DNA of 64,000 nucleotides. It comes from Sphaerotilus mobilis (GTDB lineage: Bacteria > Pseudomonadota > Gammaproteobacteria > Burkholderiales > Burkholderiaceae_C). The position numbers and the translations under genes were made by a program. The stretch spans positions 620,001-684,000 of the forward strand of contig NZ_SGWV01000008.1 in the NCBI RefSeq assembly GCF_004216565.1. Direction: 5' to 3'. A model generated the notes under the pieces. The model worked only from the letters and a program-made list of their open reading frames with translations, made no database searches and had not been told where the DNA came from. Positions 35,952 through 64,000 of the stretch are shown piece after piece; the first letter of the stretch is position 1, and each line of letters opens with the position of its first letter.

Positions 35952-36012
35952 GACGGGTCCATGCCTTCCACGCGCACGCGGCGCTCCATGAAGCGGGAGC
36001 CGTCGATGTTGT

Positions 36013-36089
36013 GGCCTGCCCGGAGGGACTCGAACCCCCGACCTGCTGCTTAGAAGGCAGCTGCTCTATCCAGTTGAGCTACGGGCAGC
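36013..36089 (-). tRNA. tRNA-Arg(UCU), CCA encoded
   Basis: On the minus strand CTGCCCG and CGGGCAG form a seven-pair acceptor stem, followed by discriminator G and an encoded CCA. The anticodon stem GCTGC/GCAGC carries loop CTTCTAA with anticodon TCT, and GGTTCGAGT is the T loop. This decodes AGA, a rare codon in such GC-rich DNA. A CATAAT about 58 bases upstream (36147-36152) could be its -10. Confidence 0.95.
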
Positions 36090-38090: not shown

Positions 38091-38107
38091 TCCGGAGCCA
38101 GAACATC

Positions 38108-48391: not shown

Positions 48392-48509
48392 GTCCTGACC
48401 TTGAACTGGCAGCTACACATACCAACGAGCGTCTGCGATGGTTTCAACGGTTTGAGTCTGCCAGAAGCACGCTACGCTGGCGCCCCCGTCCTGCCCGACA
48501 AAAGCGCCC

Positions 48510-51020
48510 ATGCACCCAACTTTTGCCCCACGTCAACGGACTCACCGGGTGGTGGGCGTGGGGGCCTCTGCAGGCGGTCTGGCGGCGCTCAAGGCCTTGT
48601 TGCAAGGCGTCCCCCCGCAATCGGGCCTGTCGTTTGTGATCGTCCAGCACCTGGACCCCACGCGCAAGGCGATGCTGGTGGAGCTGCTTCAGGGCGCCAC
48701 GCAGATGCCGGTGCGCGAAGCCACGCAGGACATGCCCGTGCAGCCCGATGTGGTCTACGTGGCGCCGCCCAACCGGGAGCTGACCTTTGCACAGGGCAAG
48801 CTCCAGTTGTCTGCGCCCAGCCAGCCGCGTGGCCTGGGCCTGAGCATCGACATCATGTTGTCCTCGCTGGCCAGAGATTCTGGCGTGTGCGCAGCAGGCA
48901 TCGTCCTGTCCGGCATGGGCAACGACGGCACCTTGGGCTTGCAGGCCATCAAGTTGCAGGGCGGTCTGACGCTGGTGCAGCAACCCGAGACGGCCGCCTT
49001 CGATGCCATGCCGCGCAGCGCCATCGCGGCCGGTGCGGCGGACATCGTCTGCCCGCCCGAGGCGATGGGCCAGCGGCTGTGGGATCTGCGCGAAGTCCCC
49101 GCCAGCGGCGAACCGAGCGTGCGCGATGTGGCGGCGCTCGACGAGGTGTTGGACCTGCTGCGCCAACACTGCGGGCGCGATCTGAGCCAGTACAAGCTCA
49201 GCACCTTGAACCGCCGCGTGGCCAGACGCCTGGCCGTGCATGACCTGGCCGACCTGCCTGCGTACGCCACCTTCGTTCGCCACAACCCGCAGGAACTGGC
49301 GCTGCTGTTCCAGGAAATGCTGATCGGGGTGACCAGCTTCTTTCGCGACCCGACGGTCTGGCAAGAGCTGTTGGACACCGTGCTGCCGGTGCTTCTGACC
49401 CAGTCTGCTCACCCAGGCCCGGTGCGAGCCTGGGTGGCGGGCTGCTCGACCGGCGAAGAGGCCTACAGCCTCGCCATGGCCTTCTGCGAAGCAGTCGCCG
49501 CGCAGCCCGCTGGTCAGGCCCGCGCACTTCAGATCTTCGCCAGCGATGTCAACGCCGAGGCCATCGCCGTGGCCCGCCGCGGACGTTACCCAGCGGCCGC
49601 AGTGGCAGAGCTGTCGCCCGAGCGGCGCGAACGTTTCTTCGCGCCGGAAGGCCACGAAGTCGTCATCGACAAGGCGATCCGAGAGATGGTGTTGTTCGCT
49701 CAGCACGACGTGATCCTTGACCCGCCTTTCACCCGACTGGACCTGATCAGCTGCCGCAACCTGTTGATCTACTTCGACGCCCGCTTGCAGCGCCGTTTGC
49801 TGCCGCTGTTTGCCTACAGCCTGCGCCCGGGTGGCGCGCTCATGCTGGGCAGCTCCGAGACCGTGGGCAGTGCCAGCCGCCTGTTCGAGCCCGCGAGCGC
49901 CCGATCGAGGCTGTTCTGGCGCAGCACGCAGTCGGTGTTGGGGTCAGCCATCGAATTCCCGACACTCAAGCGGACCCCCTCGGGTCCAGCCTACCCGGAG
50001 AAAACCTTGCTCAACCCCTCCCTCGACGCTCCCTTGGAGGCCCTCGTCAGCCAGCTGCTGCTCGACGGGTTTTCGCCGCCGGCCGTGCTGGTCAACGCCC
50101 AGGGCGACATCCTCTTCATCAGCGGCAGCACCGGCCGCTATCTGGAGCCGGCGTCTGGCAAGGCCAACTGGAACCTGCATGTCATGGCGCGCCCAGGTCT
50201 GCGCGCCCAACTCGCCACCGCGCTTCGCCAGGTCTTTGTGGACGGTCAGCCGGTGACCACGCCGGCTCTGCGGCTGAAGGAGGACGACACGCAAGCGGTG
50301 GTCCTGCGCATCCAGCGCGTCAAGACCGCCACGGTGCCCCAGGGTCTGGCCTTGGTGGTCTTTCAGGACCAGCCGGTCACACGCAAGCGACGCAGCGCTG
50401 GCCTGCTAGCCGACGGTGCCAGCGCCGCCGAATTGGCCCGCCTGCAAGACGAGGTGCACGCCTTGCGCCAGGAGATGGTGGCCTCGGCCGAAGAGCTGCA
50501 AGCCACCAACGAGGAACTGCAGGCCACCAACGAGGAACTGCAATCCGCCAACGAGGAGCTGACCACCTCCAAGGAAGAGGCGCAATCGATGAACGAGGAA
50601 CTGCAGACGCTCAACACCGAGCTGCAGTCCAAGCTCGACGATCTGGCCCTGGCCCAGAGCGACATGCAGAACCTGCTCAACAGCACGGACATTGCCACGC
50701 TCTTCCTCGACGGCGAACTGAACGTGCGCCGCTACACCGAGCAGATCACCCGCCTCATCCACCTGCGTCCGGGCGACATCGGTCGCCCTCTGTCGGACCT
50801 GGCCACCACGCTCGTCTACCCCGAACTCGAAGACGACGCCCGCGAGACCCTGCGCAGCCTCCACTTCATCGAGAAGCAGGTCAGCACCCAGAGCGGCCAG
50901 TGGTACCAGGTGCGCATCAAGCCCTACCGCACCCTCGCCAACCTGATCCAAGGCGTCGTCATCACACTGATCGACATCACGGCCGCCAAGGAACTGGAAG
51001 CCCGCTTGCGCGGCGGCTGA
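48510..51020 (+). CDS. CheB-CheR-coiled-coil-PAS fusion
   Basis: 836 residues. CheB methylesterase (about 10-190) has G-A-S-A-G-G (Ser), Q-H-L-D-P (His) and G-M-G-N-D-G (Asp). CheR methyltransferase (about 205-480) has G-C-S-T-G-E-E-A-Y-S. A region with a PAS-like fold follows, then a heptad coiled coil about 640-710 with repeated A-T-N-E-E-L-Q and a C-terminal PAS (about 710-835). No receiver domain is present. Such fusions modulate chemosensory-like or c-di-GMP-linked sensors; no methyl-accepting protein is nearby. Confidence 0.93.
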   Translation: MHPTFAPRQRTHRVVGVGASAGGLAALKALLQGVPPQSGLSFVIVQHLDPTRKAMLVELLQGATQMPVREATQDMPVQPDVVYVAPPNRELTFAQGKLQLSAPSQPRGLGLSIDIMLSSLARDSGVCAAGIVLSGMGNDGTLGLQAIKLQGGLTLVQQPETAAFDAMPRSAIAAGAADIVCPPEAMGQRLWDLREVPASGEPSVRDVAALDEVLDLLRQHCGRDLSQYKLSTLNRRVARRLAVHDLADLPAYATFVRHNPQELALLFQEMLIGVTSFFRDPTVWQELLDTVLPVLLTQSAHPGPVRAWVAGCSTGEEAYSLAMAFCEAVAAQPAGQARALQIFASDVNAEAIAVARRGRYPAAAVAELSPERRERFFAPEGHEVVIDKAIREMVLFAQHDVILDPPFTRLDLISCRNLLIYFDARLQRRLLPLFAYSLRPGGALMLGSSETVGSASRLFEPASARSRLFWRSTQSVLGSAIEFPTLKRTPSGPAYPEKTLLNPSLDAPLEALVSQLLLDGFSPPAVLVNAQGDILFISGSTGRYLEPASGKANWNLHVMARPGLRAQLATALRQVFVDGQPVTTPALRLKEDDTQAVVLRIQRVKTATVPQGLALVVFQDQPVTRKRRSAGLLADGASAAELARLQDEVHALRQEMVASAEELQATNEELQATNEELQSANEELTTSKEEAQSMNEELQTLNTELQSKLDDLALAQSDMQNLLNSTDIATLFLDGELNVRRYTEQITRLIHLRPGDIGRPLSDLATTLVYPELEDDARETLRSLHFIEKQVSTQSGQWYQVRIKPYRTLANLIQGVVITLIDITAAKELEARLRGG
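50502..50542 (+). repeat. 21-bp heptad repeat in CheB-CheR coiled coil
   Basis: GCCACCAACGAGGAACTGCA occurs at 50502-50521 and, unchanged, at 50523-50542, encoding two A-T-N-E-E-L-Q heptads; a diverged third follows. Identity including third positions points to recent duplication or conversion. Confidence 0.9.
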
Positions 51021-51093: not shown

Positions 51094-51143
51094 GTGCAGA
51101 GCTGTCAGTGCAGAGATGTCGGTGCAGAGATGTCAATGCAGAA
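51094..51143. repeat. 14-bp tandem repeat at the caspase gene end
   Basis: GTGCAGAGMTGTCR is repeated three times (51094-51107, 51108-51121, 51122-51135) with a partial fourth to 51143. The array spans the stop codon of the caspase-like gene (51133-51135). It is a candidate variable-number repeat. Confidence 0.85.
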
Positions 51144-53316
51144 CCGCCTGGGCCTGGCGCTCGCCACCCCGGCGGAATCCGTAGAGGGTCAACGAGGCAC
51201 GAACGAGGTCGCCCTTGTCGTCGAAGGCGATCGGACCGGTCACGCCCTTGTAGCCGGTGGTCCGGGCCAGCGCCTGCAACACGCGCGCAGGCTCGATGGA
51301 ATCAGCCCGACGCATGGCGTCGATCAGCACGCGGACGGCGTCGTAGGTGTAGGGCGCGTAGATCTGCACGTCCATGCCGAAGCGGGCCTTGTAGCGACGC
51401 TTGAAGTCAACCATCGGGGCGGTGAACTCGCCATCGACACCGCCGGACTCGTAACACAGGACGCGCCCGTCAACGGGATCGGCTCCGCCGGCCAGCTTGA
51501 CCAGTTCGCCGCTGCAGATGCCGTCACCACCCAGCAGACGGGCGTCGATGCCCATCTGCCGCATCTGCCGCAGCAGCGGACCCGCCACGCTGTCCATGCC
51601 ACCGAAGAAGACGACATCGGGCCGCCGGGCCTTGAGACTGGTCAGGATCGCGGTGTGATCGGTGGCCGGATCGTTGGTGAACTCACGCCCGACCACCTCG
51701 GCACCAGCAGCCTTCACGGCACGCTCGAAGGCGTCGACGACGCCGACGCCATAGGCCGTGCGGTCGTCGATCAATGCAATCTTGCGCGCCCCCAGTTGCT
51801 GGACGGCATATCGGCCAAAGGCCTCGCTGGCGTGCTGATCGTCAGTGATGAGGCGGAAGGTGGTCCGGAAACCCTGGCGGGTCAGCTTCGGATTGGTCGC
51901 CGACGGCGAGATCTGCGCAATGCCGGCTTGCTGATAGACCGCAGAGGCAGGAATGCTGGTGCCAGAGTTGAGATGACCCACCACGCCCACCACCCCCTGG
52001 GCAACCACCCGGCGGGCGGCCTCGACACCTGATTTCGGATCCGCGCCATCGTCGTCCGTGACCAGTTCGAACCGAAGCTCACGTCCGCCGATGCGCACGC
52101 CAGCAGCATTGGCCTCCTCGATCGCCAGACGTGCGCCGTTCTCGTTGTCGAGCCCGAGGTGAGCAATGGCGCCGGACGTGGGGCCGACATGTCCGATGCG
52201 CACCAGTGTCTTGCCCGTCGACAAGGACCCAACGGGGGGCGTGATCATCGCGACCTGGCTCGATGGACCGCTGGGTGCCGCCAGTCGGCGCGCAGCGTCG
52301 AGCCGCTGGCGGGCCTGCTGGCGCAAGTCGTCATCCTCGCGGCTGATCGGGTTGTCTTCGGTCCAAAGTCCGAGAAAGCGGTCCCAGGCCATGGCCTGGA
52401 GGTCGCTGCTCCCGGAAAAGCCAGTGGTCTTGTCGAAGTCCGCCTTCATGCGCTGCTGCCAGCCGTTCCAGGCTTGTCGGCTGGCCTCCTCGCGCTGCAG
52501 GTCTTCGAGGCTGATGCCGGTCGACGCGGTCGGCGGCACGAGCGCTGGCGCGGTCGCGGAAGAAGGCGGTCGGAAGTAGAAATCGCCCTTCAGGCTGCCC
52601 TCCCCCCACGGCTCCTGCTGCCCCTGGCTGACACGCTCCACGGCGGCCGCGACGCGCTTGAGCATCAGCTCGACGGGAACACCGGGCAGGTCGATCGCCT
52701 TGAGCAGTTCGGTGGTGTACAGGCCGTTGGCACCGGAGCCGTCAGCAGCCACGCTGCCCGGACGCGTGGCGAAGTGCATCAACGTGCCGCCCGGTGCGTC
52801 AGCCACTCGCGCCAGACCCCGGCTGGCGCTGCGAAACCCTCGGGCATAGGGGTTGTTGCGGCAAGCGTCAAGGATCAGCAGCTTCACGCCGGCCTTGGCC
52901 TCGTCGAGTCGTTCGAGCAAGGACCCGACGTTCAAGCTGTTGAGAGGGACATCGTCCTCGTTCTGGATCTCGGCATCGACCGCAGGCAGATAGTTCACCC
53001 CGCGCACCTGCAGGCCGTGGCCTGCATAGAAGACCACCACGTCATCGCCAGGCCGGATCCGGCTGGCAAACCCGCTGACGGTGCGACCGATCTGCGCCCG
53101 TTTCAGGTTCTCGACCTTGTGCACGGTGAAGCCGAGCTGCTGCAATTTGGCTTCCACGGCACGGGCGTCGTTGACGGGATTGCGAAGCGGGCTGTCGGCA
53201 TATGCCGCATTGCCGATGACCAAAGCGAGCCGTGCTGCCTGCGCAGGCAGCGCCTGCAGCAAAAGAAGCAGGCCAAGGCCAACCAGGAGCCGGTGCGACG
53301 CAAGGATCGAGGACAT
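51133..53316 (-). CDS. Exported caspase-like protease fused to LivJ-type binding protein
   Basis: 727 residues from the ATG at 53316, which begins a signal peptide (hydrophobic to about 22, A-Q-A at 25-27). Residues 28-245 are a caspase/metacaspase-like (peptidase C14) domain: L-A-L-V-I-G-N-A-A-Y, catalytic His100 in Y-A-G-H-G and Cys152 in L-D-A-C-R-N-N-P. A linker (about 255-360, with a W-rich S-R-Q-A-W-N-G-W segment) joins a complete branched-chain amino acid type periplasmic binding domain (about 370-727: I-G-H-V-G-P-T-S-G, G-V-V-G-H-L-N-S-G-T). Both domains should be periplasmic. Ligand binding may control protease activity. The gene lies downstream of the anchored kinase-like gene on the same strand. 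Confidence 0.9.
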   Translation of the reverse strand: MSSILASHRLLVGLGLLLLLQALPAQAARLALVIGNAAYADSPLRNPVNDARAVEAKLQQLGFTVHKVENLKRAQIGRTVSGFASRIRPGDDVVVFYAGHGLQVRGVNYLPAVDAEIQNEDDVPLNSLNVGSLLERLDEAKAGVKLLILDACRNNPYARGFRSASRGLARVADAPGGTLMHFATRPGSVAADGSGANGLYTTELLKAIDLPGVPVELMLKRVAAAVERVSQGQQEPWGEGSLKGDFYFRPPSSATAPALVPPTASTGISLEDLQREEASRQAWNGWQQRMKADFDKTTGFSGSSDLQAMAWDRFLGLWTEDNPISREDDDLRQQARQRLDAARRLAAPSGPSSQVAMITPPVGSLSTGKTLVRIGHVGPTSGAIAHLGLDNENGARLAIEEANAAGVRIGGRELRFELVTDDDGADPKSGVEAARRVVAQGVVGVVGHLNSGTSIPASAVYQQAGIAQISPSATNPKLTRQGFRTTFRLITDDQHASEAFGRYAVQQLGARKIALIDDRTAYGVGVVDAFERAVKAAGAEVVGREFTNDPATDHTAILTSLKARRPDVVFFGGMDSVAGPLLRQMRQMGIDARLLGGDGICSGELVKLAGGADPVDGRVLCYESGGVDGEFTAPMVDFKRRYKARFGMDVQIYAPYTYDAVRVLIDAMRRADSIEPARVLQALARTTGYKGVTGPIAFDDKGDLVRASLTLYGFRRGGERQAQAVLH

Positions 53317-53448
53317 GGCGGTGTTGGAAGGCGTCGACGGTTGGGATGCCAGAACTGTATCGGCCTGACCCTTCGCCGCCATCGGCAGACCGCCACCCGG
53401 CCGCGTGCTTTGCGCGAAGTGCTGCACGCCTGCAGCGGACCTGCCGCG

Positions 53449-54762
53449 TCAGACAAGCACATAGCCCACCAAGGCACCGATGGCCAGCGCCAGCGCCAGT
53501 CCCCAGCGTTGGGGGGTGCTCCGCTCACGCAGCACCTTGCCCTGCCCAGAGGCACCCGGGACCTGCGCGGCCGGTGGGTCGACGACCTGCCGAGGCAGGC
53601 GAGCCTCGATCAGCAGGGTGCCGGGCATCGCCGCCGTGGCCAGCATGCCGCCGGACTGCGGGGGCGCTTGGGCATCCGATCCGGGTTTGTCAACTGCTGC
53701 TGTGTGCACGTCGAACGCCGGCGCGGCGACCAGCCACTCAGGTCCGATCGCAGGCAGACGGGCCTGTCCGACCAGCGGCAATGGATCGCCCCTTTGCGAC
53801 ATTGCCGAGGCGAGTGCATCGGCGGCCGCCAACAGACCTGGCCAGCGATCGGCGGGCGCGGTGGCACACATGCGGCGTACGACCGCGTCGACCTTGGCCT
53901 GGCATGTCCCAAGCGTGTCGGACGCGTCGATCAGCGTCAGGAGGGCCACACCGACCGCATGCTGCATCGCGGCTGCGGCGTCGAGCGAACCGCCATCGAG
54001 CAGGGCCTGCAGGTGCTGGGCTTCGTCATAGCTGGCCCAGCAATAGCGATCGTGGTCGTCGCGAGGTCCTGGCAGCCGGGTACGGCCGGGCAGCTCGGCA
54101 CCTGCCTGCTCGAAGACGCGTTTCAGGTGCGCCTGGTCGCGCAGCAGCACCGCGCGCAGTTCAGGGGCGACACGGGCCTGGTGGGGATCGATCCAGACGG
54201 GCCGCCTCAGGTCGAACCCGGCTTCGACCGTGTGCGCATGGTCGATCAGCCTGGGGGTGTGCAAACGCGCCTGGCCCCGGATGACCTCGGTCAGGGGCAC
54301 CACGACGTTGCCTGCATGCAGGTCGATCACCAGCACGCCGGCCGCCGCGAGCGGTGCCAGCTGTCGCAACAGGTGCACCCAAACGGCCAATCGCTCCTGG
54401 GTCGACAACAGCGGGTCGCGCTCGCCCGGCGCCGGCTGAGCGAGGCGCTCCAGCGTCAAACCGGCAAAGTCGGTGACCAGCCAATCAGGGCGACCCATGG
54501 CGCGTTCTGACGGAACGGGCGCACCGAGGGCAGCCAGCCGGGCCAGCATGCGCCGCTCATGGGACAGCAAGGTGGCCGCATAGGCGGTCAGGCCCGTGTC
54601 GAGCGCCTTGACGATGCAGGGACCGTGTGCGGTGTCCAGCCAGCCGTAGCGGCTGTCCGGGCGCCCGCCGACCAGACGCCGACTGGCATCGAACCAGCGC
54701 GGCTCATCGACCGTCTGTGGCCATGGTTCTGCGGTGCTTTCAGGTGACATGGGGACGTCCAT
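53449..54762 (-). CDS. Kinase-like protein with C-terminal membrane anchor
   Basis: 437 residues from the ATG at 54762; ATG 54750 is equally possible. The first ~200 residues resemble a small protein or aminoglycoside-type kinase: I-V-K-A-L-D (candidate ATP lysine), S-H-E-R-R-M-L-A-R-L, W-L-V-T-D-F-A-G, and V-I-D-L-H-A-G-N-V-V with the catalytic Asp and metal-binding Asn, then L-I-D-H-A-H in the DFG position. A later helical region is followed by a single C-terminal hydrophobic segment (about 418-437) that would anchor a cytoplasmic domain. It is upstream of the caspase gene by 132 bp and divergent from the SEDS-PBP gene. The degree of catalytic activity is unsure. Confidence 0.75.
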   Translation of the reverse strand: MDVPMSPESTAEPWPQTVDEPRWFDASRRLVGGRPDSRYGWLDTAHGPCIVKALDTGLTAYAATLLSHERRMLARLAALGAPVPSERAMGRPDWLVTDFAGLTLERLAQPAPGERDPLLSTQERLAVWVHLLRQLAPLAAAGVLVIDLHAGNVVVPLTEVIRGQARLHTPRLIDHAHTVEAGFDLRRPVWIDPHQARVAPELRAVLLRDQAHLKRVFEQAGAELPGRTRLPGPRDDHDRYCWASYDEAQHLQALLDGGSLDAAAAMQHAVGVALLTLIDASDTLGTCQAKVDAVVRRMCATAPADRWPGLLAAADALASAMSQRGDPLPLVGQARLPAIGPEWLVAAPAFDVHTAAVDKPGSDAQAPPQSGGMLATAAMPGTLLIEARLPRQVVDPPAAQVPGASGQGKVLRERSTPQRWGLALALAIGALVGYVLV

Positions 54763-54891
54763 TGACCGGGTGACGCCGCCAAGGGACGCAGCGCCCGGCG
54801 GACCGTCGGATCGCCACAGGCGCAGCGGCGGATCCGACGTCCTCCTTGCGAGCACGTCCAAGAAGGACAACACCACGAACCGGCACCGTCC

Positions 54892-57800
54892 ATGCACTTG
54901 CGATTAACCTGGCACCTGCCTCGGCCTGTGACGCTTTCGGCCCTGGCCCAGTGCTTTTCCCGGCCGGGGATGCGGCTGGGCATGGCCTTGCTGACGTTGA
55001 CCTTCGCCTGGCTGAGCCTGCTGGGTCAGCACGAGCGCCTCTGGCAGCGTCTGCCCGTCACGGCAGCTGACCGATACGCAGGGGACGGCCTCGGGCTGGT
55101 GATTCCCGAACGGCCAGGGCTGGCCCTGCTCGAATCGGCATGCGGTGAGGACTTGTCCTGGATCGCACGCCTGCTGCCGGCGTCCAAGCGCAAGGAACTG
55201 GCCGCTTGCCTGAATGAACCCACCCGGTTGGACTCTCAGGTGCACTGGCGCGTGCTGGCACCAGCCGCCCTGACGCTGCTGGACGAGCAGATCCTGGCCG
55301 CACAAGCGTGGCAGGACACCGAACGTCGACGGGGTCCGGACCGACAGGTTCGGCTGCGCGACCGCTTGCGCTCCCTCATTGAACCGCCCGAGCAAGGCTG
55401 GCGCCGGTTCCTGCCAGATGCCGGTACGCCGGTGAGCACTCGGACACCGATGGGACCGGAACTCACGCCAAGCAGGCTGTCGGCAGGTCTCGCTCAGCGC
55501 CTGGATCAAGCGCGCCTGGACCGCGAGGCCTGGGCGGCCCTGGCGGCGGGTGACACCACCGTCGACGACAGCGGCCCGCCCGCGCTGGCAGGGGTGCGCT
55601 GGCGGGCCCGGGCCCTGCGGGCCAGCGGCTGGACACTGCTGGTGGACCATGGCGAACCACAGCCTCGGGCTCACCTGGTGAGCGACCGGTCCAGCCTGGC
55701 TGACCTGTTGGAACGGCAGCGACGGGCCCAGGCCCACGCCCAGCGTTGGCACGAGGGCGATCCCCTGTCCGGCCTCAGGGAACTGCCACTTGCCATGGCT
55801 CTGGGAAGCCTGCTGCTGCTGGCGGTCGTGGCGTGGCGCCAGCCACGTGCGGGCGCCGTCCTCTGTTGGGGCGCAGCCACCTTGCTGCCGGCACTGGGCG
55901 CCTTGCTGCTGACGGATCTGTCGCTGACCGGCTCGCCCGCCCTGCGCCATCTGGCCGCCCGCCAGTTCCTGGATGCCGCCGGCGTGGACCTGGTGCTGGC
56001 ATTGCCAGGTGGCGTCTCGTTGTGGTGGCCCTTGGTGCTGCCCGGCCCGCTGCTCTGCTTGATGCACCGCCAACCATCGGGCTTGGCGCGGACGTCCGAC
56101 CCGATGCGCAAGCGCCTCGCCGTGCTGGAACGACCGGTGCCAGCGCTGGCGCTGGGCGTGCTTCCAGCCGTGTTGTTGTGCGTGCTCATGCTGACCTTCA
56201 ACCGCGCCGCAGCCCTGAGCGAACTGCTGATCGGGCTGGCCTGTCTCGGCCTGGCGCTGGCTGTCGCGTCGACCGCCGCGCAGGCCAATGCGGGCATCCC
56301 TCCATCCTGGCGGCACACGTTGCTGGTCGCTGCCTTGGCAGGTGGCGCGATGCTGACGGCCATGCTGCGCAACGACCACGGTCACGCCGCGATTGCCGTC
56401 GTGCTGCTGGGGCTCTGGGCATGGATGTTCCGGCCATGGCTGGCCAGCGCGACAGCCGGTCTCATCACCGCGAGTCTGCTTGCGGCACTGCTCTGGACGG
56501 CCCAGGACGCATCCCCTGTCGACCTCCTGCACACCGGCACGCACCTGCTGCCAGCCCATGTGCAGGAACGGTTCGAAGCCATGCAGGACCCCTTCGGTGC
56601 GGCGACGTCCGACCTGGCCCGCGTGCAATGGCTGATGGCGAGCGCAGGTCCTGCCGGTTGGGGTGCAGGCTACGTACCCTGGCAAGGTCTGCAGCCCGGG
56701 GCGAACGAGGCCGGCCTGCCCTTGCAGGGGCCCAGCGACTATGTGCCGGCCCTGTGGATCGCGCTGTGGGGCCCGAGCATCGGACTCGGACTGATCGGCC
56801 TGGCTCTGCTGCTGTTCTGCGCCGCCGCCGTCCGGGGGCTGCGGGTCGCGCTGGCGCCTGGACGGCGGACCGCACACCGGGCCCTGGCGGCCTGGGGTGG
56901 ACTGGGTTGTGCCGCTGTGGCGACGAAGATCGTCTTGTCCACGTCGGGCGTCGCGGGACTCCTTCCGCTGACGGGCTTGCCGGTTGCCTTGTTGGGCTAC
57001 GGCCCGGTGGCCAATGCGGCGGCCGCTTTCTACCTTTTCCTGGCGCTGGGCACGCCGGACCGCCACACACAGGCCGGCACACGCGCCAAAGGTGTCTGGC
57101 GTCAGGGGACTGGACCGGCTTCGGTGGGCCATGTGCGGCGTCGCATGGCGGCGCTGTCCTATCTGTTGGGCCTGCTGATCGGCGCAGGCCTGCTGTGGTG
57201 CATCCAGCACTGGGCGCGCGAAGGCGACCGCACCGACAGGCCCACGCGCCACCTGCCGCAATTCGACGTTCGCCTGCGCCAGGCACTGGCAACGAGCCTG
57301 ACCCGCGTCGGTACCGATGTGGCAACGTCGGATGTCGCAGCCTGCCCGCCCTTGTACCGGGTTGTGGCCGACTGGAACCGACTGCTCGAACAAGCCGGCC
57401 ATGCACGACACATCGACGCCGGGACCCTGTGGCGGGAACTCGCGACCGAACAGACGCCCGATTGCCGCAGCAGCGCGCGGCGCCTTGGCCTGGCGCTGGA
57501 ACGCGACCGCCACAGCGCCGCGACCTCAGGCGCGATGCTGGTGGTCCTGGCGCGCCAGGTCGGCACGCGCGATGTCTGGTGGGCTCGCCCAGGTTGTCTG
57601 CTGGAGTCACCGCCCGACCGGTTCCCTTCGGCCGCCGTTGCTGTGGGTCGAGGGCTCCCGGTGCTGGACTGTGACGAGGAGGCACGGCATGCCCTCGGCG
57701 AACTGTCCTATGCCAAGTCCCTCGACCCCTGGCTGCTGGCTTCGGCCCGTCCAGGCATCGAGCGACTGCTGCAAGAACCGGCCGGAAGTTCTGTGGTGAA

Positions 57801-59115
57801 CCACCATCCGGTCCGTCAGGGTCGTGCGGTCATGGTCACGCTGGATGCCGTGCTCCAGTCGCAAGCCGAGCGCTGGGTGCGCTGCCTCACCGGGCACTTG
57901 TCCACCTGCCCAGTCGACGAACGCGGACGGCCCGCCGCACCGACCGCGCCGCGATCCGATCAGCGGCTGCGCGCAGGGGCGATGGGCCTGCTGCTGGCAG
58001 AGGTCGACAGTGGCCGTGTGCTCGCCATGGCCGGTGCGGTATCGACCTGCACGCGCGCCAACCTGCAGCGCATGGCCACGGACGATCTGGCGTTGCGCAG
58101 CGCAGAAGATTGCGCCCAGCGACCGGATCGCCGCAACGCCTGGGTGCTGGGTCATCACCCCGCCACCTGGGCGGTGCCACCAGGCAGCGCGATCAAGCCG
58201 CTGGCCTTGCTCTCGGGCATCGAGTCCGGTCAGGTGCCACGCACCGATGACGAACGCTGGAAGCACATCCTGGCCGAAAGCCGCCTTCGCGCACCGGTTC
58301 AGTCACTGGCGCTGTCCAGCGCCAAACGTTATCTGCCGCTGATCGAGCGGCTGCTGCCACCGCGCGCCGAACTGATCGCAGGCGGCCGGTCTGACGGATG
58401 GTGGATCACGAACGCCGATGGGCTCGCGGGCCTGCGACCCAGCACCCTCGACTTCGAACAGGTCGAAGCCATGCGGCAAGAGAAGGCGCAGGGCAAGGAC
58501 CTCGACCGCCTTCATCCGGCCAGCCAGGTGCGCGCCTACCTGGACGCGCGGCGGCTGGCCGACACGGCGCTGGGCGCAGCGGACGCCAGCGTCTCGGCCT
58601 GGGGGCTGATGGAAGTCTGGCGGGCTGTGGACCTGCGCGCTCGGGGACACGATGACGCACCCAAAGCGCACCTGATCGCCGGTCTGGGCGCTGCGACCGA
58701 AACCGTGCACCAGACCGACCTGAGGGCCTTCAGCGCTGACGCCGCCCGACGTGTACTGGCAGCCACTTCTGGCGTCACGGCCAGCCATTGGCAAGGGACC
58801 GCCCAAGGCAGTTGTCGGCGCGTGTTTGGGCATTGCGACCCCCAAGGCGTGGCCACGCTGTCGGGCAAGACCGGCAGCGCGGACTTCCTGCAGGCCGAGG
58901 ACAGTCCCCACGTCAAGGCGGGTCAGCAATGGCCGGCCAAGTTGTTTGCTGCCGTGTTCACCGGGTCAGATGGTCGACGCTATGTGGTGTCCGCGATGTC
59001 CCTGCGCGCCCGCGAGGCCGGATCGGACACCCTCGAACTCAAGAGCTCGGCGGCGGCCGAGGCCGCACTCGGCCTGGTTCGTTCTCTGCAAGCGCCGCTG
59101 GCGTCACCGTCCTGA
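54892..59115 (+). CDS. SEDS polymerase-like / PBP transpeptidase fusion
   Basis: 1407 residues. One membrane segment near 27-45 and a periplasmic region (to about 300) precede about ten membrane segments (305-700) resembling FtsW/RodA: the G-P-S-D616-Y loop aligns with the catalytic H-T-D-F motif, and G-V-A-G-L-L-P-L-T-G-L-P resembles the FtsW G-x-L-P-x-x-G-L segment. A further membrane segment (about 752-772) leads to a class B-like penicillin-binding domain: S1099-A-I-K and K1326-T-G-S are the SxxK and KTG boxes; the SxN box is not clearly intact (S-S-A). FtsW/RodA and their PBPs are normally separate proteins. It probably polymerises and crosslinks peptidoglycan, or senses its precursors. 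No strong ribosome site precedes the ATG. Confidence 0.85.
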   Translation: MHLRLTWHLPRPVTLSALAQCFSRPGMRLGMALLTLTFAWLSLLGQHERLWQRLPVTAADRYAGDGLGLVIPERPGLALLESACGEDLSWIARLLPASKRKELAACLNEPTRLDSQVHWRVLAPAALTLLDEQILAAQAWQDTERRRGPDRQVRLRDRLRSLIEPPEQGWRRFLPDAGTPVSTRTPMGPELTPSRLSAGLAQRLDQARLDREAWAALAAGDTTVDDSGPPALAGVRWRARALRASGWTLLVDHGEPQPRAHLVSDRSSLADLLERQRRAQAHAQRWHEGDPLSGLRELPLAMALGSLLLLAVVAWRQPRAGAVLCWGAATLLPALGALLLTDLSLTGSPALRHLAARQFLDAAGVDLVLALPGGVSLWWPLVLPGPLLCLMHRQPSGLARTSDPMRKRLAVLERPVPALALGVLPAVLLCVLMLTFNRAAALSELLIGLACLGLALAVASTAAQANAGIPPSWRHTLLVAALAGGAMLTAMLRNDHGHAAIAVVLLGLWAWMFRPWLASATAGLITASLLAALLWTAQDASPVDLLHTGTHLLPAHVQERFEAMQDPFGAATSDLARVQWLMASAGPAGWGAGYVPWQGLQPGANEAGLPLQGPSDYVPALWIALWGPSIGLGLIGLALLLFCAAAVRGLRVALAPGRRTAHRALAAWGGLGCAAVATKIVLSTSGVAGLLPLTGLPVALLGYGPVANAAAAFYLFLALGTPDRHTQAGTRAKGVWRQGTGPASVGHVRRRMAALSYLLGLLIGAGLLWCIQHWAREGDRTDRPTRHLPQFDVRLRQALATSLTRVGTDVATSDVAACPPLYRVVADWNRLLEQAGHARHIDAGTLWRELATEQTPDCRSSARRLGLALERDRHSAATSGAMLVVLARQVGTRDVWWARPGCLLESPPDRFPSAAVAVGRGLPVLDCDEEARHALGELSYAKSLDPWLLASARPGIERLLQEPAGSSVVNHHPVRQGRAVMVTLDAVLQSQAERWVRCLTGHLSTCPVDERGRPAAPTAPRSDQRLRAGAMGLLLAEVDSGRVLAMAGAVSTCTRANLQRMATDDLALRSAEDCAQRPDRRNAWVLGHHPATWAVPPGSAIKPLALLSGIESGQVPRTDDERWKHILAESRLRAPVQSLALSSAKRYLPLIERLLPPRAELIAGGRSDGWWITNADGLAGLRPSTLDFEQVEAMRQEKAQGKDLDRLHPASQVRAYLDARRLADTALGAADASVSAWGLMEVWRAVDLRARGHDDAPKAHLIAGLGAATETVHQTDLRAFSADAARRVLAATSGVTASHWQGTAQGSCRRVFGHCDPQGVATLSGKTGSADFLQAEDSPHVKAGQQWPAKLFAAVFTGSDGRRYVVSAMSLRAREAGSDTLELKSSAAAEAALGLVRSLQAPLASPS

Positions 59116-59204
59116 TGGTTGCACTGTCCATGCGTCCTCCCTGTCACCGGCCGGTGCGCCGGGCCCTACCTGGTCAGAGATGGCCGCCACTGCGGAGAGA
59201 CCAC

Positions 59205-60521
59205 ATGCCCTCGCTTGACGTGACCTTCGATGGTCGTCGAACCAGCACCCGGACCTTGATCCGGGACATCAGCCACCAGTTGGCCCAACACACGCCCCGG
59301 CGGATCGAGTTGCACTACGCGGATCGGTCGGACACGCGCATCGATCCGCCAGCGGTCCAGAGGGCCATCGTCGAGATGGTTCGCGAGCACGGCTGGCGCG
59401 ATGTCGAACTGGCGATCCGTCCGCACCGTCTGCCGCTGGACCAGGCCACTGGCGACCACCTGCTGCGGCTGCACTGGCTGGAAGAAGACGGCACGTTCGC
59501 GCCGATGACGTCGCACCACCGCCCGGAAGGAGCGCCAACCAACGCAGCAGCTTGGTGGCGCACGCTCTGGTCACGTCGACCGAGCCGCGAGCGACTGAAC
59601 CTGGCAACGGACGCTGACGCGACAGCGCCAGCGCCAGCATCTTCCGGCGAGGCCGTCCGGCTGCTGCGTGCAGCGGTCCAACGCGCCGCGCTCGACCTGA
59701 CGCCGGAATCGAGCCTGCCCAACAGTCGTCCGGTGGTCCGACATCTGGTGGCGAAGGTCCGGGACGCGGCCCTGGCGCAGGCCTTGCGCCCCTACTTCAC
59801 TGGCGAGAGCCTGGCCACGTCGCAAGCGATGTCCCGCTGGCTCGTCCAGGATGGCTGCCACGTCCCGGACCCGCTCACCGTCGAACTGGACAGCCGCGCC
59901 ATCGCGAACCATGGCGGCACCTTTCTTGTGGACGCCGCCGATCTGATCGTGACGCTGAAGCCGTCTCGTGAGCCCCTGGCGACAGGCTTGACTGCCACGT
60001 CGGTGCCCCGGTCCGAGCCCAGCAAACGCCCGGCGCTGGACCTGAGCACGGCCTTGCCTGCCGGGCGTGGCGACGCCACTCCCGACGTGCAGCTCACCTG
60101 GGTCGGCACGCTCGACGGCCGCTTCGAGCATCCGGTGCCTCTGCCGTCGCGCATCTTGCCGATGCGCATCGACCGGGAACTGCTCAGCGCCACGATGCCG
60201 GCCCTGCACAAGCCGGCGCTGCTGGCCGTTGCCAGCCAGAAGCAACCGCTGCAAGTGCTGCGCAACGCGCAGGGTCGCATCGTCCTGAAGTCACCCCGTT
60301 CGGAGTCAGGCCGTGTGCCCCTCTACCGTTTGCACCCGGGGTTCGAGCCCCTGCCGGAGGAGCTTCTGCTGATGGATGCACCGGTCATGGTGGTGGTCAA
60401 CGATCCGTCCGGCGTGCTGCATCCGATCACGGGAGAGCGGCTGCCCGCCCTGCTGATTGAGGTCCGCCCTGGGCTCGCGAAGCACACCGCTCGCACGTCC
60501 AGCCCGAGCCCGATGCCCTGA
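59205..60521 (+). CDS. Unknown protein of the SEDS-caspase cluster
   Basis: 438 residues from the ATG at 59205, with GGAGAG upstream. It is soluble, with no signal or membrane segment. The N-terminal 100 residues look alpha/beta (S-L-D-V-T-F-D-G-R-R-T, I-E-L-H-Y-A-D-R-S-D-T), the middle is helical and Ala-rich, and the C-terminus beta-rich (P-L-Y-R-L-H-P-G-F-E-P-L-P-E-E-L). I do not recognise a family. It follows the SEDS-PBP gene by 89 bp on the same strand and may be its cytoplasmic partner or a target of the kinase-like protein. Confidence 0.75.
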   Translation: MPSLDVTFDGRRTSTRTLIRDISHQLAQHTPRRIELHYADRSDTRIDPPAVQRAIVEMVREHGWRDVELAIRPHRLPLDQATGDHLLRLHWLEEDGTFAPMTSHHRPEGAPTNAAAWWRTLWSRRPSRERLNLATDADATAPAPASSGEAVRLLRAAVQRAALDLTPESSLPNSRPVVRHLVAKVRDAALAQALRPYFTGESLATSQAMSRWLVQDGCHVPDPLTVELDSRAIANHGGTFLVDAADLIVTLKPSREPLATGLTATSVPRSEPSKRPALDLSTALPAGRGDATPDVQLTWVGTLDGRFEHPVPLPSRILPMRIDRELLSATMPALHKPALLAVASQKQPLQVLRNAQGRIVLKSPRSESGRVPLYRLHPGFEPLPEELLLMDAPVMVVVNDPSGVLHPITGERLPALLIEVRPGLAKHTARTSSPSPMP

Positions 60522-60995
60522 ACGCGTCGAGGGGTCGCCGGGTCGCCAGGTCGACCTGACCCTGGCCGTGGCTGTGCAAATTGTCACAACCTCATGCAAC
60601 ACCATGCAGATGCGTTGACACAGCCTCGCAGGGGCTTGCGGCTAGCATGCTTGGGATCTGACCCAGATCAGACTTCACAGGGAGATCCGCATGCCCACAG
60701 GACGATGGTGGCGTGACGTCGTGACGACGTTGGCGAGCCTTGCTTCCCGCCTCGTTCGCACGCGGCGAACGACCACGGCGTCGTCCGCGCGGTGATCCCC
60801 CTAGGTCCAGCGTGCTGCGCGGCCCTGCCCACCCGTGGCACGTCGTCGACGCCTGCGACCGGGTTTGCGTGGCGCAGGTGTGAAGCGGTCCCGCCGGTCC
60901 ACCCGATCCGACGTTTGCGGCCCGAGCCCGTCCCTTGAGGAACCGATGCTCATGTCCCTACCCGCCCGCCCCGGGCCCGTCTTCTGGAGCCACTG
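60522..60995. other. 474-bp leader region with two tiny ORFs
   Basis: This separates the unknown gene from the exported-protein genes. It contains an inverted repeat GATCTGACCCAGATC (60655-60669), a 34-codon ORF with a good ribosome site (60691-60795) and a 16-codon ORF coupled to the next gene (60946-60996). A TTGACA at 60615 has no -10 at proper spacing. This is the likely promoter region of the downstream operon. Confidence 0.5.
60691..60795 (+). CDS. Small basic 34-aa ORF
   Basis: The ATG has AGGGAG seven bases upstream. The product starts M-P-T-G-R-W-W-R-D-V and has a hydrophobic/amphipathic middle (V-V-T-T-L-A-S-L-A-S-R-L-V) followed by Arg/Thr. It could be a small membrane-associated protein or a leader peptide for the DUF4384/OmpA genes. 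There is no homology evidence; the ribosome site is the main support. Confidence 0.45.
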   Translation: MPTGRWWRDVVTTLASLASRLVRTRRTTTASSAR

Positions 60996-60996
60996 A
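60946..60996 (+). CDS. 16-codon ORF overlapping the next start (TGATG)
   Basis: The ATG is preceded by GAGGA and the frame encodes MLMSLPARPGPVFWSH; its TGA shares a base with the ATG at 60996. This layout could couple translation of the next gene, which otherwise has only GGAG at a long spacing. Coding as such is uncertain. Confidence 0.35.
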   Translation: MLMSLPARPGPVFWSH

Positions 60997-61628
60997 TGCC
61001 CAAGCCTTCTTTGCCCAACTCCCGACGCGCGTCGCGCACCCTGTCAGCCACCGTCCTTGCGCTGGCCTGTTGCGCTGCGGTGGCCGCCGGCACCGCCAAG
61101 GACGTGGTCGTCGACCGCGTGCTGCAACCCGCCCTTGCGCCAGCCGGCGTGGTGGCGGCGGCCGAGGACGCGATGGTGGTGAGCGTGCTGCTCGAATCGC
61201 CCGATGGCACGCTGAGTCCGCGCGGCACCGACAAGCTCTTCCAGACCGGTGACCGTTTCCGCGTGAAGCTGGTGGCGTCGCGTGACGCCAAGGTCTCGCT
61301 CTACAACACCAATCCGCGCGGTGAGACCGGCAGCAAGCCACTCTGGGAAGGCGTGGTCAAGGTGGGTCAGGACACCATCAGTCCCCGCCTGGCGCTGACT
61401 GGCAGCTCTGGTGTCGACCAACTGCATGTGCTGATGGAGCCGCAAACATCGGGCGGCGTGTTCGCGTGGCTGGGCAACTGGCTGGACAACTTCAAGGACG
61501 GCCGACCGGGCAGCGCCAACAAGGACATCCAGCTCGACGTGCAGAACACCGAGACCGCCAGCTACCTGGTGAACCACGGCGGTCGCGGGCTGGTGGCCAC
61601 GATCCGCATCGTCCACACCGCACGCTGA
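60996..61628 (+). CDS. Exported DUF4384-like protein
   Basis: 210 residues. A twin-arginine-free signal peptide ends near V-A-A-G-T-A. The mature part holds L-S-P-R-G-T-D-K-L-F-Q-T-G-D-R-F-R-V-K-L-V-A-S-R-D-A-K-V-S-L-Y-N (written here as a motif run), which is the DUF4384 pattern often found with caspase-like proteases. The C-terminus is beta-rich. It starts the exported-protein operon and is presumed periplasmic. Confidence 0.8.
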   Translation: MPKPSLPNSRRASRTLSATVLALACCAAVAAGTAKDVVVDRVLQPALAPAGVVAAAEDAMVVSVLLESPDGTLSPRGTDKLFQTGDRFRVKLVASRDAKVSLYNTNPRGETGSKPLWEGVVKVGQDTISPRLALTGSSGVDQLHVLMEPQTSGGVFAWLGNWLDNFKDGRPGSANKDIQLDVQNTETASYLVNHGGRGLVATIRIVHTAR

Positions 61629-61649
61629 ACGCCAGCACCGGAGCCCCCC

Positions 61650-62453
61650 ATGCCATCCCGTACCTCCTTTTTCCCGCCCATCCGTGCCACGGCCTTCCTG
61701 CAAGGTCTGGTGCTCGGCGCCACTGTGGTCCTCAGCGGCGTGGCCGTGGCCAACGATGCCGACAAGTCGGTGGCCGTCGAGCATGTGCCCGCCTTTCCCG
61801 CGCTGGAGCGCTGGGTGTCGGGCCGCGTCACCGGCGCGATCGATGCACCGCTGACCCGCGTGCAGACGATCCCGCTCAGCCTCGCGGGTGCGCCGCAGGC
61901 CGAGACCTACCAGCCCCTGCCAGTGATCCTCGGCCTGCCCGAGCTGCCGCTGATCGGCGCCGGCGCCGGCCGCACGGACAGCGCCTGGAGCGCCGGCTTC
62001 AACTACCAGGGCCTGGCACTGCGCCAACTGGTGCTCGACGGCAAGGGCACACAACACCAGCTGCGCCCGCTGTCCGCCGGCATGCCGGCCGGTGCGCGAT
62101 TCAAGCTGCGGATCACCGCAACCTTTGATGCCGTGGCCGAGGTCGATCAGGTCGTGGGCGACGCCTGGTATGGCCAGCGCGTCGGTCAGGTCTACCCGAA
62201 GAAGGGGATGTCGGTGTCGATGAAGGCCGGCGAGACGGTGGACCTGCCGCTGGGTGCTCAGGCGTACTTCGTGATGGGCCGTGCCGCCGACCAGCGCCTG
62301 GTGCTCTCCGTGCGACATCCGAAGGCCATCGGCAGCGCGCGAAGTGCTCAGCCCGCCTATCGGCAAGACGGACGCAACGGCAGCACCTATCTGCAGCTGG
62401 TGCCCTCCGGCAGCCATCCGGTGATCGAGCAGCAACTCATGCTGGCACGCTGA
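61650..62453 (+). CDS. Exported protein with DUF4384-like fold
   Basis: 267 residues. A hydrophobic N-terminal segment ends near A-V-A-N-D, indicating export. The middle has F-N-Y-Q-G-L-A-L-R-Q-L-V-L-D-G-K and then G-A-R-F-K-L-R-I-T-A-T-F-D-A-V-A-E-V-D, which resembles the G-D-R-F-R-V-K-L-V-A-S-R-D-A-K-V-S segment of the upstream gene. It may therefore be a diverged relative. No catalytic motif is visible. The gap to the upstream gene is 21 bp. Confidence 0.75.
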   Translation: MPSRTSFFPPIRATAFLQGLVLGATVVLSGVAVANDADKSVAVEHVPAFPALERWVSGRVTGAIDAPLTRVQTIPLSLAGAPQAETYQPLPVILGLPELPLIGAGAGRTDSAWSAGFNYQGLALRQLVLDGKGTQHQLRPLSAGMPAGARFKLRITATFDAVAEVDQVVGDAWYGQRVGQVYPKKGMSVSMKAGETVDLPLGAQAYFVMGRAADQRLVLSVRHPKAIGSARSAQPAYRQDGRNGSTYLQLVPSGSHPVIEQQLMLAR

Positions 62454-62490
62454 GGCGTCGCCCCCACCCACGATCGACAGGTCACGACCC

Positions 62491-63114
62491 ATGCGATACC
62501 CCCCCTCACAAGGCCTGCGCCGCCGCTTCTGCGCCGCCCTGCTCGGCCTCGCCACGGTCTTCGCCGCACAGGCAGCCGACACCACCGAAACCGAGACACC
62601 CATCCTCAAGTCCGGTCAGATCCTCGAAGCCCTGCGAGGCAAGGACATCGTGCTCGACACCGCGGGTGCGGGCGTTCGTCCAGGCGCCACGCCGCGCGCG
62701 GCGGGCCGGCGCGATCCTGCGGTGCATCTGCAGGTGCGCTTCACCTTCGACTCGGCCGAACTGCTGCCCCAAGGCAAGCGCCAACTCGACGAACTGGCCA
62801 TGGCATTGGGCGACCGTGCCCTCGCACGGTGGGGCTTCCTGCTGGCGGGCCACACGGACCGGGTCGGCGCCGCCGACTACAACGTGCAACTCAGCCTGGC
62901 GCGGGCCGAATCCGTCAAGGCCTACCTGGTCGAAGCCCATCGCATCGATGCCCAGCGGCTGCAGACGCTGGGCTACGGCTATGCCCGCCCGATCGATGCG
63001 CAGCTACCCAATGCCGCCATCAACCGCCGGGTCGAGGTGCGCCGCATCGCCTTGCCGCCTGCCCAGCCAGCCGCGCCGGAGACCGGTGGGCGGCTGGTGC
63101 CCACGCCCCGATGA
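62491..63114 (+). CDS. OmpA-domain outer-membrane/peptidoglycan protein
   Basis: 207 residues. A signal peptide ends near F-A-A-Q-A-A. The C-terminal OmpA domain shows V-R-F-T-F-D-S-A-E-L-L, G-H-T-D-R-V-G, N-V-Q-L-S-L-A-R-A-E-S-V and N-R-R-V-E-V, the residues that bind diaminopimelate of peptidoglycan. There is no beta-barrel; it is a periplasmic peptidoglycan-binding protein, in line with the SEDS-PBP neighbour. Confidence 0.92.
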   Translation: MRYPPSQGLRRRFCAALLGLATVFAAQAADTTETETPILKSGQILEALRGKDIVLDTAGAGVRPGATPRAAGRRDPAVHLQVRFTFDSAELLPQGKRQLDELAMALGDRALARWGFLLAGHTDRVGAADYNVQLSLARAESVKAYLVEAHRIDAQRLQTLGYGYARPIDAQLPNAAINRRVEVRRIALPPAQPAAPETGGRLVPTPR

Positions 63115-63154
63115 GCCGTCCATGCACCGCGACCCCAACCGCCAAGGAACAACG

Positions 63155-63697
63155 ATGAACTTCCCCGCCTTGCGTCCCCTCTTCACCGTGGGCCTGCTCA
63201 CGCTGGCCGGCCTGTGCAGCTTGCTGACCGGTTGTGCGGCAACGTCAAGCGCCGCGCCTGCCGCCAACGTCGCCACTGCCTCCGTGCAACAGCTCGACAC
63301 CGTGCTGCGTGGTGCGGCCAGCAACCGCCCGGTGTCCCTCCAGTTGTCGACGAACCAGGTCCGCACGGGCGACACGCTGGGTGTGCAGCTGCGGGCGACG
63401 CGCGGTGGCCATGCCTACCTGTTCCAGCTGGGCACCGATGGCAAGACGCTGTCGATGGTCTTCCCGAACGCCGTGGACGGTGCCAATCACCTGGCCCCGG
63501 ACACGACGCTGGTCCTGCCGCGCGAAACCTGGCGCATGACCGCACGCGGACCGGCCGGGTTGGGCTACATGCTGGCTGTGGTGACCGACCAGCCGCTCGA
63601 CCTGCTGGCCCTGCAAGCCCAGGTCCAATCCGGCAAGCTCGAGATCGCCGGAGCCTATGGCGCCGGTCTGGCAGCCCTGCGCGAGGTGGCGCCGTGA
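63155..63697 (+). CDS. DUF4384-like lipoprotein
   Basis: 180 residues from the ATG at 63155 (AAGGA upstream). The signal ends in a lipobox L-L-T-G-C, so the mature protein is lipid-anchored. It carries a DUF4384-like domain: V-R-T-G-D-T-L-G-V-Q-L-R-A, H-A-Y-L-F-Q-L-G, F-P-N-A-V-D and L-P-R-E-T-W-R-M. It ends by overlapping the next gene's GTG by 4 nt. Confidence 0.88.
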   Translation: MNFPALRPLFTVGLLTLAGLCSLLTGCAATSSAAPAANVATASVQQLDTVLRGAASNRPVSLQLSTNQVRTGDTLGVQLRATRGGHAYLFQLGTDGKTLSMVFPNAVDGANHLAPDTTLVLPRETWRMTARGPAGLGYMLAVVTDQPLDLLALQAQVQSGKLEIAGAYGAGLAALREVAP

Positions 63698-64000
63698 GGC
63701 GAGCGAGAACCAGCGCGCAGCTGCGCCACGGGCTGGTCAAGCTGCTGAAGGCGCTGATGGGGCGGATGGCACTGACGGTGAGGATCACGCTGGCACTGTT
63801 GGCGGGTTGCCTTGGCACGGTGCACGCTGCCACCGGCGTGCTCACCGACCCGAGCGAGGACGAACTGCTGCACTTGCTCGACCCGCCGCCCGTCGCCCGC
63901 AGCTTCAGCCTCGCGCCGCGGCCCTCCAGCACCGATGGGTCCTGTCTGCCGACGACGGTGTCAGGGGCCGGCGCGGCAACCGGCAGTGCCTCACGCAATC
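63694..64000 (+). CDS. Exported protein, cut by window end
   Basis: A GTG overlapping the lipoprotein stop opens a frame that continues past 64000 (102 codons visible). A basic start and hydrophobic stretch (about 24-45) ending near V-H-A-A form a signal peptide; then E-D-E-L-L-H-L-L-D-P-P-P-V-A-R-S-F. The spacing to the lipoprotein implies coupling. This could be a second OmpA-type protein, whose N-termini often look like this, but the decisive part is outside the window. Confidence 0.7.
   Translation, partial: MRRARTSAQLRHGLVKLLKALMGRMALTVRITLALLAGCLGTVHAATGVLTDPSEDELLHLLDPPPVARSFSLAPRPSSTDGSCLPTTVSGAGAATGSASRN

Follow-up and report, generated by a model that had tools for sequence, protein, structure and literature searches.

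The window analyzed here, a stretch of 64,000 nucleotides from Sphaerotilus mobilis (C2:620001-684000 of the 4.65-Mb assembly), contains at its right end part of a gene cluster, referred to below as the caspase island. A first-pass annotation had named an envelope cluster extending to the end of the window. The genes that it listed are present, but the window boundaries are not those of the cluster, which is cut at base 64000 and continues for approximately 20 kb. We describe the locus together with the overlapping stretches L002 (C2:683001-703000) and L154 (C2:702001-722000). From position 60996 to approximately 84 kb in window numbering, the island codes for two small proteins, an OmpA-domain protein, a DUF4384 lipoprotein, a second OmpA-domain protein, an extracytoplasmic function (ECF) sigma factor, a probable anti-sigma factor, six caspases and a serpin. 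Nine proteins of the caspase family (C14) scored above the cut-off in the genome, seven of them in the island (C2:672.6-704.0 kb). The genes are listed below; some gene starts were picked by eye, and identities refer to counterparts in G018, a genome of another genus of the same family.

51133..53316, minus strand: caspase with signal sequence, joined to a solute-binding domain of the branched-chain-amino-acid type (727 aa if started at ATG 53316; 764 aa if started at GTG 53427)
60996..61628, plus strand: 210-aa protein with signal sequence (hydrophobic N terminus), first gene of the conserved operon, 50% identity to the G018 gene at the same position
61650..62453, plus strand: 267-aa protein with signal sequence, 46% identity to G018 gene
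62491..63114, plus strand: OmpA-domain protein 1 (PF00691, 1.4e-17), 49% identity to G018 gene
63155..63697, plus strand: DUF4384 lipoprotein (PF14326, 2.1e-14; lipobox LLTGC by eye), 42% identity to G018 gene
63757..64000, plus strand, truncated where the window ends (complete gene L002:757-1368): OmpA-domain protein 2 (PF00691), 45% identity to G018 gene
L002:1534-2271, plus strand: ECF sigma factor (PF07638, 2.2e-08)
L002:2276-3052, plus strand: probable anti-sigma factor (position, hydrophobic stretch, G018 counterpart)
L002:3108-4889, plus strand: caspase-DUF4384 1
L002:4886-6625, plus strand: caspase-FGE 1
L002:6827-8266, plus strand: caspase-DUF4384 2 (DUF4384 part by local model only)
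L002:8361-9863, plus strand: serpin (PF00079, 9.8e-74)
L002:11095-13095, plus strand: caspase-FGE 2
L002:13148-14872, minus strand: caspase-TolB_N
L002:14895-15842, minus strand: 315-aa protein, DUF4384-like by eye only
L154:501-2063, plus strand: further caspase

Pfam matches in the minus-strand frame 51133-53427 (PF00656, 1.7e-35; Peripla_BP_6, PF13458, 6.6e-60) bore out the caspase-binding-protein fusion of the first-pass annotation, and the OmpA and DUF4384 genes were confirmed likewise. The ECF sigma factor matched PF07638 with 34.6 bits for a cut-off of 21.1. The anti-sigma candidate was named solely from its position next to the ECF gene, a hydrophobic stretch and 26% identity to its G018 counterpart. 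Local hidden Markov models (HMMs) for C14, ECF, anti-sigma, OmpA, DUF4384 and serpin proteins were seeded from the island and loci L097 and L144, plus genome G452 for the serpin. Matches of the local HMMs to these sources are partly circular because of this seeding; the Pfam matches are independent.

The catalytic GHG and DxC motifs (His and Cys) were invariant in all eight aligned caspases, six from the island and two from G590, a genome of the same genus; the seventh island caspase was outside the alignment. A PF00656 match plus the catalytic His and Cys assigns the proteins to the orthocaspases, which cleave after positively charged residues according to an excerpt of PMC6426788. Hydrophobic N termini resembling signal sequences were detected in four caspases, both small proteins, both OmpA-domain proteins, the DUF4384 protein and the serpin. 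Two more caspases displayed a clear N-terminal signal by eye, and the seventh a weaker hydrophobic stretch.

These N termini bear on the possibility that the caspases kill the cell once a trigger is sensed, in programmed death or abortive defense, which we consider improbable. The PADLOC caspase model did match all five caspases among the 10 proteins submitted, over part of the model; an OmpA protein matched the ZorB (MotB) models of Zorya through its OmpA domain (2.7e-08); and an open reading frame resembling a type I restriction specificity subunit by eye is located to the right of the island (L154:8275-9645). However, six of the seven caspases bear a clear hydrophobic signal, unlike the caspases of known defense systems, which are cytoplasmic. 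The ZorB match is expected of any OmpA/MotB domain, and no other Zorya protein was seen, although none was searched for. Nothing beyond adjacency and family names spoke for the programmed death, or for the altered wall synthesis, put forward in the first-pass annotation.

In G590, caspase genes adjoin type VI secretion genes (L061:5668-12029, L062:2530-9194; by eye). Beside them, also named by eye, is a large fusion of an exoprotein and a caspase, together with a transporter of the two-partner type. These arrangements would fit caspases acting on neighboring cells or serving as secretion-linked effectors. Such antagonism appears highly improbable for the island, since no secretion genes were recognized by eye in its examined part and the association with OmpA and DUF4384 proteins suggests action on the cell's own envelope.

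Conservation of the operon and variation of the caspase tails

The G018 genome contains, in this order, genes for the 210-aa, 267-aa, OmpA, DUF4384 and OmpA proteins, the ECF sigma factor, the anti-sigma factor, five further caspases, caspase-DUF4384 1 and caspase-DUF4384 2. Nine gene pairs between S. mobilis and G018 are in the same order (26 to 50% identity), with other caspases intervening. The co-occurrence of caspase, OmpA and DUF4384 genes proposed from the window held in G018, where their order is conserved, together with an ECF sigma factor gene. In seven other genomes of the family, C14, DUF4384 and OmpA genes were located within one 20-kb region in three cases, an ECF gene was detected in two and a serpin in none; the eight family regions were hand-picked from the 74 genomes containing a relative of caspase-DUF4384 1. 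The G018 caspase operon is bracketed by two near-identical, oppositely oriented transposase genes (C1:5179513-5180625 and 5198690-5199748; L164 and flanks), suggesting that this operon is mobile.

The caspase domain of the window protein was 80, 80 and 76% identical to those of three G018 caspases, the tails of which are TctC, TctC and an unknown domain, respectively. It was 77 and 69% identical to the caspase domains of two proteins of genome G181 ending in FGE (one FGE call by local HMM, the other by eye). The tail of the window protein aligned with the G018 and G181 caspase tails only across short or weak stretches; linkers were common to some G018 and G181 tails. A second exchange pair consists of the G018 caspase-SBP_bac_3 protein and S. 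mobilis caspase-FGE 2, which have 69% identical caspase domains and unrelated tails. Other binding proteins of the genus were up to 64% identical to the solute-binding half of the window protein (62% in its own genome), and the whole caspase-Peripla_BP_6 fusion was found only in S. mobilis among 13 genomes of the genus. A related caspase domain (E value of 1e-40 or better) was present in 68 of 399 family genomes, and tails were examined at 30 loci.

Because caspase domains with 69 to 80% identity bear unrelated C-terminal domains, similar protease domains are joined to different predicted ligand-binding or modifying domains, the protease being constant and the putative sensor exchanged. Swapping solute-binding domains on an unchanged protease would give bacteria a means of wiring new ligands to proteolysis. 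The first-pass annotation had proposed that the binding domain senses a periplasmic ligand, leading to proteolysis. As a prediction, this reading is strengthened, since several solute-binding domains have been exchanged on closely similar caspase domains.

Association of the serpin with caspase genes

The match of the island serpin to PF00079 spans residues 2 to 370 of 370. Its hinge, EQGGEAAAA, departs from the P17-P9 consensus ExGTEAAAA (as given in an excerpt of PMC8233489) at P16 (Q for E/K/R) and P14 (G for T). By its fold and reactive center loop hinge, the protein is predicted to be a serpin of the inhibitory type. Serpins are rare in the order to which S. mobilis belongs (2 of 399 genomes), and the S. 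mobilis serpin gene is located inside the caspase array. In the other serpin-containing genome, G452, no C14 match was obtained and no caspase was seen beside the serpin.

From the 506 relatives returned by a contig scan with the serpin, the best 80 were analyzed; none of these exceeded 34% identity, and 28 of the 80 loci were at least 21 kb long. A C14 gene was present in the examined flank at three loci, L097 and L144 (both Desulfomonile tiedjei, two genomes) and L099 (Thermodesulfovibrionales). L097 and L144 contain the full set, comprising genes for the ECF sigma factor, anti-sigma factor, DUF4384-caspase, DUF4384 protein, OmpA protein, caspase-DUF4384 and serpin; the zinc-finger match of the L097 anti-sigma factor was under the Pfam cut-off. 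Desulfomonile belongs to the Thermodesulfobacteriota, and its order and S. mobilis are likely in different phyla.

Of 18 genomes of the Desulfomonile order, 14 contain C14 genes and seven contain serpins (nine matches corresponding to eight genes, two G611 matches being in one frame). A C14 gene was located within 6 kb of five of these eight serpins (G598, G599, G607, G609 and G613), and all five loci also matched the ECF, anti-sigma, DUF4384 and OmpA models. The chance value for this proximity, roughly 4e-9, is only indicative, because the 6-kb limit was set after the distances were known, genome sizes were rounded and members of the order share ancestry.

Proposed function and comparison with known systems

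Together, these observations suggest a real but uncharacterized protease-and-brake system, with a similar set of genes in distant bacteria. We tentatively favor an ECF-sigma-linked periplasmic sensor-caspase system restrained by the serpin, of which the window would contain the left end. The sequences themselves establish gene content and order, signal-like N termini, the catalytic His and Cys, domain exchange and the co-location of serpin, caspase and ECF genes in the island and in the Desulfomonile order. Several caspases with export signals have similar protease domains and differ in the putative sensor or effector domain at their C terminus. They may be activated when a ligand binds or when the OmpA and DUF4384 proteins report envelope damage, and would then cut periplasmic substrates, with the outer region of the anti-sigma factor possibly among them. 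Such cleavage would free the ECF factor and turn on the operon; this step is the least certain and most speculative, and ECF control of the operon is itself predicted. The serpin, which likewise has an export signal, would be a suicide inhibitor limiting the caspases, a role that we infer from the repeated co-location and the intact hinge. A more ambitious proposal, which we consider unlikely, is that of a caspase-serpin signaling axis present in distant bacterial groups, in which one ECF circuit would govern a periplasmic caspase array with cartridge-like sensors, the caspases would act as anti-sigma site-1 proteases and a co-exported serpin would provide the brake.

Several results weigh against the serpin-restrained system. 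No C14 gene was present in the examined flank of 77 of the 80 serpin loci, many flanks being short. In the Desulfomonile order, three of the eight serpins (in G610 and G611, and the second in G599) were away from caspases in the region examined; a C14 gene with ECF and anti-sigma genes of its own is located 23.5 kb from the second G599 serpin. No serpin match was obtained in 60 kb around the G018 operon (E value of 1e-3; no search for serpins by name was made in the genome as a whole), indicating that the serpin is not obligatory. No shared promoter was detected upstream of the S. mobilis and G018 operons (alignment score of 25; mean of 22 and maximum of 33 for shuffled sequences). In Desulfomonile, a DUF4384-trypsin fusion is encoded directly after the serpin (L144:11139-12686) and could be the target of this serpin. 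Finally, at the canonical P1 position the serpins of the island and L099 have Lys, whereas the five caspase-linked serpins from the Desulfomonile order have Ala, Ser, Ser, Met and Thr. P1 Lys was rejected as a sign of caspase specificity, in view of these five serpins and of the Lys or Arg found at P1 in 15 of 75 other serpin hinge matches. Thus, P1 provides no argument for the basic specificity reported for orthocaspases.

The serpins distant from caspases, the absence of a serpin from the G018 operon, the trypsin fusion and the variable P1 would fit a loose accretion, in which caspases duplicate and gain domains independently, the serpin guards the envelope against other proteases (trypsin-like, foreign) and no pathway unites the genes. 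We judge this explanation to be somewhat unlikely, since it accounts poorly for the five Desulfomonile-order genomes in which ECF, anti-sigma, C14, DUF4384, OmpA and serpin genes all occur together and for the gene order conserved between the genera of S. mobilis and G018.

The proposed serpin-restrained system resembles anti-sigma proteolysis of the RseA/RseB/DegS type in combining an ECF factor, a membrane anti-sigma factor (a candidate in the island) and periplasmic proteases; it differs in that the proteases are caspases and that anti-sigma cleavage is only proposed. In plants, AtSerpin1 and AtMC9 form a serpin-metacaspase pair. The island likewise combines a serpin, with a basic P1, and caspase-family proteases. 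It differs from the plant pair in being bacterial, in the export signals and genetic linkage of its components, in that inhibition is predicted and in that P1 is not conserved in linked relatives.

Caspase operons with sigma factors have been described in Myxococcus, Ralstonia and other bacteria, with OmpA in 14 operons, in the excerpted text of Asplund-Samuelsson 2012 (PMC3501461). The same excerpt reports caspase-FGE fusions in 33 sequences, one ANF_receptor fusion, up to three caspases per operon and, in four Rhizobium strains, an operon labeled 'protease and protease inhibition'. The island has in common with these operons the combination of caspase, sigma factor and OmpA genes, as well as caspase-FGE fusions. 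It differs by its seven caspases, not all of which are in one operon, by its serpin, a word absent from the text of PMC3501461, and by the exchange of sensors on closely similar caspase domains, which was not found in the excerpt. Functions of prokaryotic serpins are termed relatively enigmatic in a serpin phylogeny (excerpt of PMC8233489), and DUF4384 has been reported on alphaproteobacterial pseudo-orthocaspases with a trypsin-like domain (excerpt of PMC6426788). No report of a serpin-caspase pairing was found among the titles and abstract openings listed in searches of open-licence PubMed Central papers. Caspase operons with sigma factors and OmpA have been known since 2012; the serpin pairing and the domain exchange appear to be new among the papers covered by these searches.

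Kinase-like, SEDS-PBP and 438-aa genes

Three genes separate the caspase-binding-protein fusion from the conserved operon.

53449..54750, minus strand: kinase-like 433-aa protein (motifs by eye; C-terminal hydrophobic stretch at residues 415-433), outside the conserved core
54892..59115, plus strand: 1407-aa protein, fusion of parts resembling shape, elongation, division and sporulation (SEDS) proteins and penicillin-binding proteins (PBPs), named from sub-cut-off Pfam matches and similarity to G143 proteins
59205..60521, plus strand: 438-aa protein, 90 bp downstream of the 1407-aa fusion, frame without family match

The two gene sets are divergent, as first annotated, with likely starts at 54750 and 54892. 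The SEDS-PBP label stood in part. Both Pfam matches of the 1407-aa protein were below the cut-off (FTSW_RODA_SPOVE, 18.3 versus 26.4 bits; PBP, 20.3 versus 22.1 bits). The name is supported by similarity to G143, a genome of the same family in which a gene for a long SEDS protein (Pfam match above the cut-off) adjoins one for a 909-aa PBP-like protein, followed by FHA, PP2C and kinase-like genes (L203:8097-19444). The SEDS half of the fusion was 33% identical over 155 aa to the G143 SEDS protein, and the PBP half was 27% identical over 167 aa and 40% identical over 50 aa to the protein encoded by the gene that follows, so that the two halves match two G143 proteins in the same order. The 909-aa protein itself had no Pfam match and is termed PBP-like from its similarity to the fusion and a KTG motif; the G143 kinase match was under the cut-off. 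The fusion has retained an Asp aligned with a column invariant in nine aligned SEDS sequences, as well as SAIK (SxxK) at 1099 and KTG at 1326; SxN, the other motif expected of class B PBPs, was not found, with SSAK at 1142. The SEDS part is predicted to work like a SEDS polymerase, although it is not filed as one.

SEDS proteins and class B PBPs are known to act as pairs (RodA-PBP2, FtsW-FtsI), and actinobacteria have a kinase/FHA/PP2C/RodA/PbpA cluster, an arrangement that the G143 cluster resembles. The fusion has SEDS-like and PBP-like parts in order, with the SEDS Asp, SxxK and KTG. It differs from such pairs in being a single polypeptide, in its sub-cut-off Pfam matches, in the SxN motif not found and in that no FHA or PP2C gene was found beside it. 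No PP2C was detected among the 20 Pfam-scanned proteins of the locus, and the 438-aa protein had neither an FHA match nor similarity to the G143 FHA protein. The locus thus departs from a kinase/FHA/PP2C/SEDS/PBP cluster, which has FHA and PP2C genes beside SEDS-PBP.

The kinase-like label rests on motifs seen by eye; no Pfam or NCBIfam match above threshold and no PDB match was obtained, and the 433-aa protein is not classed as a Hanks-type kinase for want of a kinase domain match. For the 438-aa protein, Pfam and NCBIfam gave no match and the PDB no significant one. Single-sequence structure models were useless (predicted local distance difference test scores of 41 for the 438-aa protein and 40 for the kinase-like protein). 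Neither protein had a match in the G143 cluster.

Searches of 200 genomes of the family, 399 of the order and 13 of the genus found the whole SEDS-PBP fusion in S. mobilis only, and no whole relative was found in plasmids. A contig scan with six 8-residue patterns of the protein, which reaches close relatives only, also returned no whole relative. Partial matches were obtained in one other family genome (G143, of 200) and in 23 others of the 24 matching order genomes; 15 sequences from fusion-matching loci matched the SEDS part by BLAST and resembled SEDS proteins of ordinary or greater length. A search of 330 order genomes with the G143 SEDS protein (E value of 1e-10) gave no match, in a sample without a positive control.

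The first-pass annotation had combined the kinase-like, SEDS-PBP and 438-aa proteins with the caspases in one wall-stress system altering wall synthesis. Adjacency and divergent arrangement are compatible with this proposal, and the G143 cluster is an example of SEDS and PBP-like genes accompanied by FHA, PP2C and kinase-like genes. However, no match to any of the three proteins was obtained in 60 kb around the G018 operon (E value of 1e-5; no genome-wide search for the kinase-like and 438-aa genes was made), and no caspase was recognized by eye in 20 kb around the G143 cluster. Since the fusion is whole only in S. mobilis (1 of 13 genus genomes), the refuting condition named in the first-pass annotation, genes apart in most relatives, applies to it, and the conserved core differs from the gene set emphasized there. 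A joint wall-stress system is improbable. A single system with SEDS-PBP as its core was rejected, no whole relative of the fusion having been found in any of the collections searched. We read the three genes as a separate neighbor of the caspase system, probably a far-diverged, reduced relative of the G143-type cluster, located next to the caspase island by chance.

Genes for a GGDEF-EAL protein and a CheB-CheR-PAS protein flank the left border of the island (window positions 46532-51020). Farther to the left, positions 36012-41044 include the lowest GC content of the window (0.643 at 36-38 kb) and adjoin a tRNA-Arg gene; this segment is possibly an integrated element.

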